DNA of 34,125 nucleotides, taken from the NCBI GenBank assembly GCA_016871535.1, contig VHCZ01000043.1:1-34125 (forward strand). Direction: 5' to 3'. Shown in pieces: positions 10,738 to 12,771 of this stretch. The notes beneath the pieces were generated by a model that saw nothing but the letters and a program-made list of their open reading frames with translations, searched no databases and was not told where the DNA came from. Origin of the DNA: Verrucomicrobiota bacterium (GTDB lineage: Bacteria; Verrucomicrobiota; Verrucomicrobiia; Limisphaerales; SIBE01). The first letter of the stretch is position 1. The number at the start of each line of letters is the position of its first letter. The translations under genes were made by a program, and so were the position numbers.

Positions 10738-10822
10738 GGTAGGGCGAGTCCGTCCCCGGCGAGCCGCTCGACGTGACTGGAACACGGCCGACTCGGCTCG
10801 CTGGGGACAGGCTCGCCCTACC
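10738..10822. repeat. Palindromic element, copy 1 (intergenic)
   Basis: This 85-bp imperfect palindrome starts GGTAGGGCGAGTCCG and ends GGACAGGCTCGCCCTACC, with inner arms GGCGAGCC and CGGCTCGC. Two more near-identical copies follow at 11930 and 12654 in the same orientation. It lies in the 255-bp gap between the quinoprotein fragment and the cupin. The same gap has a small hairpin (GAATTGC/GCAATTC, 10850-10868) and no other gene. Confidence 0.9.
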
Positions 10823-10893
10823 GTCTGGTTGATGGGAAGAATGGATCCGGAATTGCGCCTTGCAATTCCCGGACCCAGGACTCTCATGGATGC

Positions 10894-11294: not shown

Positions 11295-11328
11295 CGGCTC
11301 GGCGGGAGCCTCGCCCCACCGCCTGGTT
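11295..11328. repeat. Degenerate half copy of the palindromic element
   Basis: CGGCTCGGCGGGAGCCTCGC, followed by CCCACCGCCTGGTT, matches the right half of the approximately 84-bp element with several differences. It borders the stop codon of the MFS gene. Confidence 0.5.
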
Positions 11329-12631
11329 AGAACCGTCCTCGATTCCGAGAAGCCATCGCCAGCAACGCCCCCAACCCGATGACCAGCACGACGCCGACGG
11401 CGATCGTGCCGCTTTGGGGATTGGAAGGATTGAAGTAGAGCGCGGTCCCCGCAATCGCCGGTCCGCCAAAGATGCCGGCTCCGATGGCCGATTCATGCAA
11501 ACCGCCATGCTCGGCTTTGGCTTCTCCAACGTCCATCGAATAAAAAAGCGACGAGTAATAAATCAGCCCCAGTCCGAGGCCGAACGCAATCTGCGCCAGC
11601 ATGACCAGAGCAAGCTTCGGTGCGAGCAACACGCCGGCAAAGCCTGCCGTCAGCAGCATGTAAGCGCCCAGGAACCAGCCAGACCGGTAATGCCACCCTT
11701 TCCACAGCCACAGCACGCAGAACGTAACCGCTCGCGCAAAAAACCAGATGGAACAAAAGAATCCGGCCAGCCTGGGCGTCAGTCCGAATTGTTTGGCGAT
11801 TCCCGGAACGACCGCTACCACGGTATTGATCGCGATGTAGGCGAACGGATTCGCCAGCCAGGCCATCTTCAGAAACATCTTCGCGCGCGCAATTGGGCGC
11901 GGATTCAAAGGCGGCAAGGACGTGAACCAGGTAGGGCGAGTCCGCCCCGGCGAGCCGCTCGACGTGCCGGGAACACGTCCGACTCGGCTCGCTGGGGACA
12001 GGCTCGCCCTACCGTCAGGTTCACGGGAAGCGAGAACGATGGCGCCGGTTTTTCTCTTCAGTCTCGCGATCAGGAGAAGTTGAACCAATTGAATCCCGAC
12101 CGGCAGCCAGAACAAACTTCGTTCTCCAAGCGCTTCCAACAGCGCCCCGCCGAGGAAAAAAGCGACAGCTCCCATGGCCGCCCAAACCATGTTATAAATG
12201 CCAAGCGTGTGCGGCAGCGCCGCCGGACTTTCTCCCTCGCTCACCAGCGCCTCGAGGTTCGGCCAGGTGAAACCCATGCCGAGCGTGCAAAGGGCCATCA
12301 CCGCGATGTGCCCCCAAGCACTGTGGAGGGTGTAGCCGACGATCAGGGACAAAGCCATGCCCACGACGCCCACCTGCAACGCGGTGAGGTATCCGAACCG
12401 TTGTCCGAAGCGCCCTCCGAGCCACGCGTTCGCCATATAGACGAACCCGTTGAGGGCCGCCAGCGCGAGGTTGTCGCGGTTGTCGAAGCCGTACTCGTCC
12501 GCCATGAAAAAGAACAGGTAGAAAAAATAGTAGGAGGTCGAGAGCGAGTTCAGCGCCTCCAGTGCGAAGAAGATGAGCCGGGGGTTGCTCACGGCGAATT
12601 CATGCCAGGCCTCCTTGGGTTTCAGAACCAT
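11327..12631 (-). CDS. MFS transporter with an in-frame palindromic-element insertion
   Basis: This 434-residue protein is rich in hydrophobic helices. The N-terminal half (residues 15-195) and C-terminal half (250-430) each have about six membrane segments, typical of a major facilitator. Segments such as LGGRFGQRFGYLTALQVGVV contain a cytoplasmic-loop-like GxxxxRxG motif. Residues 207-234 (GRASLSPASRVGRV, then PGTSSGSPGRTRPT) are the exact translation of the 84-bp palindromic element at 11930-12013. They fall in the central cytoplasmic loop between the two six-helix halves, where extra residues are best tolerated. Without them the protein would be near 400 residues. The substrate is unknown. 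A further element copy lies 22 bases upstream of the start and a half copy sits at the stop. Confidence 0.8.
   Translation of the reverse strand: MVLKPKEAWHEFAVSNPRLIFFALEALNSLSTSYYFFYLFFFMADEYGFDNRDNLALAALNGFVYMANAWLGGRFGQRFGYLTALQVGVVGMALSLIVGYTLHSAWGHIAVMALCTLGMGFTWPNLEALVSEGESPAALPHTLGIYNMVWAAMGAVAFFLGGALLEALGERSLFWLPVGIQLVQLLLIARLKRKTGAIVLASREPDGRASLSPASRVGRVPGTSSGSPGRTRPTWFTSLPPLNPRPIARAKMFLKMAWLANPFAYIAINTVVAVVPGIAKQFGLTPRLAGFFCSIWFFARAVTFCVLWLWKGWHYRSGWFLGAYMLLTAGFAGVLLAPKLALVMLAQIAFGLGLGLIYYSSLFYSMDVGEAKAEHGGLHESAIGAGIFGGPAIAGTALYFNPSNPQSGTIAVGVVLVIGLGALLAMASRNRGRF
11930..12013. repeat. Palindromic element, copy 2, inside the MFS gene
   Basis: The core is 84 bp (28 codons) and lies exactly on codon boundaries of the MFS frame. 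Outside it, GTGAACC (11922-11928) and GGTTCAC (12018-12024) extend the palindrome. It differs from copies 1 and 3 at only a handful of positions, mainly near the centre. Confidence 0.95.
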
Positions 12632-12653
12632 GCACGCGGCTCATGAACCGTTC

Positions 12654-12737
12654 GGTAGGGCGAGTCCGTCCCGGCGAGCCGCTCGACGCGCGTGGAACAC
12701 GTCCGACTCGGCTCGCTGGGGACAGGCTCGCCCTACC
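12654..12737. repeat. Palindromic element, copy 3 (between MFS and Nudix genes)
   Basis: This 84-bp copy has the same ends as the others and flanking TGAACC / GGTTCA. It lies just upstream of the MFS start and 34 bases beyond the Nudix stop, so it could affect the MFS leader or act as a transcription barrier. Confidence 0.9.
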
Positions 12738-12771
12738 GTCTGGTTCACGCGAAGAGTTGGCGAAGTGCCGG

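Follow-up and report, generated by a model that had tools for sequence, protein, structure and literature searches.

A palindromic repeat sits in frame within the gene for an MFS transporter of a Verrucomicrobiota bacterium, and in-frame copies of the same repeat occur in at least ten other genes. We think it likely that the element is a non-autonomous hairpin repeat, and that its copies within genes persist only where the hydrophilic linker they add does no harm: the copies securely placed within genes are all read in one and the same frame, although several frames of the repeat are open, and relatives lack the insert in the host proteins compared.

Three copies of the repeat are present in the window (the whole stretch of DNA analysed, 34,125 nt), which contains the following features:

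10738..10839, no strand assigned: copy 1, intergenic (85-bp core at 10738-10822 plus right arm)
11327..12631, minus strand: MFS transporter gene (PF07690; MFS_1, E 7e-16), interrupted in frame between helices 6 and 7
11922..12030, minus strand: MFS intragenic copy, a 103-nt single hairpin with a right end conserved across 96 copies
11930..12013, minus strand: 84-bp B core (GGTAGGGCGAG...CTCGCCCTACC), 28 codons corresponding to MFS residues 207-234
12612..12649, no strand assigned: A module (CCTTGGGTTTCAGAACCATGCACGCGGCTCATGAACC) to the left of copy 3, overlapping the predicted MFS start
12654..12754, no strand assigned: copy 3, upstream of the MFS gene (84-bp core at 12654-12737 plus right arm)

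The MFS copy has outer arms GTGAACC/GGTTCAC followed by the conserved end GGGAAG, and its minus-strand reading gives the peptide SREPDGRASLSPASRVGRVPGTSSGSPGRTRPTWFT. Identity to its sequence over 101 nt is 83% for copy 1 and 94% for copy 3 (100% for the MFS copy itself). The original prediction of three copies of a palindrome of about 84 bp, one of them an in-phase stretch of 28 codons, was borne out: the core of the MFS copy falls exactly on codon boundaries and contains no stop. The 103-nt palindrome proposed at 11922-12024 indeed folds into one hairpin closed by the outer arms. Two details stood only in part. Of the two copies described as intergenic, copy 1 is, whereas the left module of copy 3 enters the predicted MFS start; and the proposed size of 84 bp applies to the middle core of a larger unit, which has a left module and a right end reaching 12030. 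The predicted ATG at 12631 and the residues MVLKPKEA are read from A-module repeat sequence. Note that MFS orthologues begin further in than this ATG, and translation may really start at a GTG that lies about 14 codons downstream of it.

The 84-nt core has a folding energy of -66 kcal/mol, with a z value of about -7 (-7.3) against mononucleotide shuffles, which also served for the other z values. Its halves taken alone fold no better than shuffles (z +1.5 and +1.6), and the B core is therefore a single long hairpin rather than a dimer of REPs of 20-40 bp. GTAG stands at both outer ends of the core (GGTAGGGC...GCCCTACC). In an alignment of 96 copies the right end of the unit is sharply conserved up to GTCnGGTTCATGGGAAG (position 12030), and to the left of the core lies a second, smaller hairpin module, A (GGTTCATGGG...CCCATGAACC; z -4.3). 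The outer arms of the repeat are CATGAACC/GGTTCATG and CTTCC/GGAAG, and the repeat contains no gene. The A and B modules alternate in tandem arrays with units of 138 bp (L105, contig C36), 141 bp (L277, contig C258), 146 bp (L074, contig C1) and 168-171 bp (L125, contig C75). Three of these arrays are near contig ends, and the arrays are locally open for hundreds of codons without coding signal.

A search of the bacterium's own genome, a 6.67-Mb draft in 460 contigs, gave 204 + 163 = 367 matches to the conserved half-core at up to 3 mismatches, i.e. about one copy per 18 kb. The same search with a reversed pattern gave no match, showing that the family is not due to chance. Extended to 39 relatives, the search gave only weak or partial matches, in 7 genomes that include the sister species (8 of 40 with the own genome), while a class-wide search found matches in 21 of 383 other genomes (22 of 384 with the own genome). 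The repeat is thus a multi-copy family, close to species-specific and nearly absent from relatives. An Rfam search of the window gave no match.

Most of the sampled copies lie outside genes. To recognize those that do not, we used a codon-usage model trained on long ORFs and retained copies flanked on either side by coding sequence within a single open frame; this census covers sampled copies. In a gene-blind sample, 7 of 93 non-array copies are in frame inside coding sequence, or 5 of about 91 once two copies that had entered through protein hits are removed, so that the in-frame genic share is about 5-8% of sampled copies. The in-phase insertion proposed for the MFS gene recurs in the following:

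L079: RND pump; the ACR_tran match is split in two, resuming at profile position 505 after the insert
L128: polyketide synthase; insert in the KS-AT linker
L117: PSCyt1/PSCyt2/PSD1 protein; secure or probable genic copy
L147: MMPL exporter; secure or probable genic copy
L108: fused MFS/spermidine-synthase-like protein; secure or probable genic copy
L144: HZS-alpha-like protein; secure or probable genic copy
L090: YdiJ/GlcD-like oxidoreductase; secure or probable genic copy
L104: protein without family match; secure or probable genic copy
L276: ResB-like protein; secure or probable genic copy
L275: methyltransferase/glycosyltransferase; insert inside the methyltransferase domain
L099: ApbE protein; insert just after the signal peptide, a weaker case
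L268: esterase-like ORF; insert at residue 191 of an incomplete ORF, a weaker case

In the RND pump (L079:1197-4781:+) the element is followed in the same loop by a second repeat-like peptide, LTPSLSPSGGEGVRRTGEGE, and the polyketide synthase (L128:2108-5563:+) has two further repeat-like peptides, NVGQTSCLPVDSASLPCHTRGKMPQEVAGWKPALH and SPSPPSLSPSGGEGVRRTGEGDS. The copy at L120 is frame-shifted internally. Four copies lying in long ORFs in other frames (L266, L085, L143 and L271) were rejected as genic, one flank being non-coding; at L266 the ORF runs into a pilin-like FTLIELLV start, so that the element precedes the gene. The array loci L105, L125 and L277, with their long open frames devoid of coding signal, were not counted as genes.

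We then considered the frame in which the genic copies are read. Four of the six frames of the 105-bp unit are stop-free in 67-73 of 78 canonical copies. Nevertheless, the secure genic copies all share one frame and orientation, which gives EPDGRASLSPASRVGRVPxTSSGSPGRTRPTGFM. When only copies sampled through DNA searches are counted, eight genic copies outside the window use the frame of the window copy (L079, L090, L099, L104, L117, L128, L144 and L268); with even use of the four frames, and if the copies are independent, the probability of such agreement is 0.25^8, or about 1.5e-5. The favored frame has a Ser/Gly/Pro/Thr share of 0.54, the highest of the open frames (0.24-0.41 for the others). 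We infer that the choice of frame is made by selection at the protein level. The hairpin could instead be kept in coding sequence because it acts as DNA or RNA, through transcription attenuation, mRNA stability or the binding of gyrase or IHF, the peptide being incidental, and the great stability of the hairpin and the extragenic position of the majority of copies are in keeping with such a role. Yet a regulatory hairpin need not hold one of four open frames, and the sampled copies elsewhere display no clear orientation bias relative to the flanking genes, which makes this explanation quite unlikely.

Sites without the element are found in relatives of several host proteins. In the PSCyt/PSD1 protein, exactly 66 residues are absent from 6 of 6 relatives, whose length at the joint is otherwise unchanged; this insert consists of the B core with an A module and a further GGTAGGGCTGCG palindrome. 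The element is likewise absent from relatives of the MMPL exporter and of the spermidine-synthase-like protein; in the sister species, the corresponding loop of the spermidine-synthase-like protein holds another repeat-like peptide, EPTPSPLPGGE.

In the MFS transporter, 79 residues separate the starts of helices 6 and 7, whereas the median for this segment is 52 among 58 orthologues taken from named genomes; a loop of the same length but unrelated sequence is therefore not general to the orthologues. The growth of about 27 residues is smaller than the 34-36 residues encoded by the element, so that part of the original loop seems to have been replaced. The segment exceeds 57 residues in 5 of the 58 orthologues, all with repeat-like inserts:

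L196: 94 residues; loop DNA multi-copy in its own genome
L200: 81 residues; loop DNA very high-copy in its own genome, with relatives in the genome of L227
L227: 63 residues; its genome holds relatives of the L200 loop DNA
L206: 61 residues; loop DNA high-copy in its own genome, with relatives in the genome of L216
L216: 61 residues; its genome holds relatives of the L206 loop DNA

The first of these comes from the nearest relative by MFS gene, a groundwater Verrucomicrobia MAG (JACPRI, G001). The inserts of L200 and L227 start with GGTAGGGCG or GGCAGGGCG, in a frame that differs from that of the window copy. L225, which shares 83% DNA identity with L227, has no insert; the net gain in L227 is 30 bp, and target sequence thus seems to have been replaced there as well. 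The inserts of L206 and L216 may stem from one shared event. Since the five longest-loop orthologues all carry a palindromic repeat or a relative of one, the loop is a recurrent landing site, hit by at least four separate insertions (including that of the window) from at least three repeat families.

An AlphaFold model of the transporter, built with 34 sequences, has the full MFS fold (mean pLDDT 86, pTM 0.85; helices mostly at pLDDT 96-98) and leaves residues 203-246, which lie between helices 172-202 and 247-273, without structure (pLDDT mostly below 50). The added residues are thus predicted to form a disordered loop in an otherwise intact fold. These results support the view that the palindrome extends, in phase, the central loop of a working-looking transporter, in an arrangement like that known from Rickettsia. 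From the open frame and the conserved flanks, the insert is probably translated.

Recurrence in the same MFS loop, with different palindromic repeats hitting it separately in several species, could also mean that the peptide is beneficial and not just tolerated, i.e. that it is a domesticated linker with a selected role in flexibility, regulation or interaction, and the use of a single frame in the own genome would fit. We consider this very unlikely: 53 of the 58 MFS orthologues do without an insert, the inserts of different species share only low complexity, the same peptide occurs in unrelated enzymes, pumps and cytochrome-type proteins, and AlphaFold gives the insert no structure. That the MFS copy is an assembly collapse or chimera with the neighboring copies is scarcely credible, for although high-copy repeats do break this assembly (as with the arrays at contig ends), homology places both flanks in the same gene with the frame kept, the copy differs from its neighbors by variants of its own (94% and 83% identity), including matched changes in both outer arms, and the same arrangement is found in about ten other genes.

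The reading that we favor, that of a hairpin repeat tolerated as a linker, would operate as follows. A B core with GTAG ends and a smaller A hairpin, forming a BIME-like mosaic, would have spread through one verrucomicrobial lineage by roughly random insertion, and selection would remove most copies that land within genes. This purging can only be inferred, because out-of-frame genic copies are not cleanly separable from tandem genes. The surviving genic copies would be those with a net length change divisible by three, placed in a surface loop or an inter-domain linker, and in the frame giving a soluble peptide rich in Ser, Gly, Pro and Thr. The element itself would be selfish or neutral, and the peptide a passenger without new function.

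How the repeat moves was approached through its ends and its neighbors. The original prediction of a target duplication of about 2 bp was unsupported: the ends of 16 full units show no excess of direct repeats over shuffled pairs, and no duplication is detectable genome-wide. An excess of direct repeats in the flanks was traced to the arms of tandem A and B modules. Mobilization by a RAYT was rejected as well, since among 13 places with Y1_Tnp only one (L151/L063, contig C9) is near a half-copy, which is not above chance. At that place, a Y1 (RAYT-like) transposase gene (L151:2540-3570) flanked by inverted GGGTCAGTCCCACATATTGACA/TGTCAATATGTGGGACTGACCC ends is inserted beside a broken half-copy of the element. 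A related GGTAGGGCGnGTCCGTCCC GTAG palindrome occupies the center of a MITE of about 131 bp in G036, a genome from another family of the order (loci L048, L052, L055, L057, L058 and L060). Unlike the repeat studied here, for which no duplication was found, this MITE carries terminal inverted repeats GGTGCATCCCGATG and is flanked by target duplications of 9 bp (e.g. gacgcgtgg, gttcaaaga, gccgcatct and ccggaaaag; in two further cases 7-8 of the 9 positions agree). This hints, as a lead only, at possible carriage of such cores by a DDE transposase.

REPINs are RAYT-dependent and lie mostly outside genes, whereas the repeat described here showed no linkage to a RAYT and no short REP hairpin. It resembles REPIN and BIME mosaics (Bertels and Rainey 2011, PMC3116915) in that two inverted ends form one long hairpin and in its hundreds of copies and tandem mosaics. 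GTAG- and CGTC-tagged repeats within ORFs were described by Di Nocera et al. (2013, PMC3733652), who cite the Rickettsia elements, name Opitutus terrae as the species richest in GTAG repeats within genes and report two Xanthomonas species with REPs at about the same site of recB. The intragenic palindromic repeats of O. terrae mean that ours is not the second, unrelated lineage after Rickettsia that had been proposed. Those GTAG-tagged REPs, which encode 20-30 residues, are like our repeat in being palindromes with outer GTAG, clustered, in mosaics and within ORFs, in the same phylum. By contrast, a GTAG-tagged REP would be expected to have its tag abutting a 20-40-bp stem-loop of its own, whereas here only the whole 84 nt folds, and to be associated with a RAYT (Y1) gene, whereas the single Y1 place near a half-copy here is at chance level; and one frame is used throughout here. 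As far as the Rickettsia palindromic elements (Ogata, Claverie) are described in PMC3733652, they too are selfish-looking palindromes lying in frame in many functional genes, where they lengthen the protein by a few tens of residues at places that tolerate it. The repeat described here likewise lies in frame in several conserved genes and is absent from orthologues. The phylum and host lifestyle differ, and the likeness is one of arrangement. A limited literature search in an incomplete library found no description of the repeat family, of the single-frame rule or of multiple hits on one transporter loop.

Selection filtering such insertions leaves measurable signs: a single frame used out of four, exact empty sites, and a loop hit separately by different repeats. 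Annotators should also be aware that repeat DNA accounts for many odd peptides in proteins of Verrucomicrobia. It is possible, though doubtful, that the repeat is adapted to life within genes, its sequence having been shaped so that one of its frames gives a benign flexible linker, and that verrucomicrobial genomes hold many repeat families of this sort which repeatedly insert in the same protein loops; if so, palindromic repeats would steadily supply the phylum with new protein segments. Whether such palindromes only survive in proteins or build them, a question open since the work on Rickettsia, is now testable with many cases in one genome.
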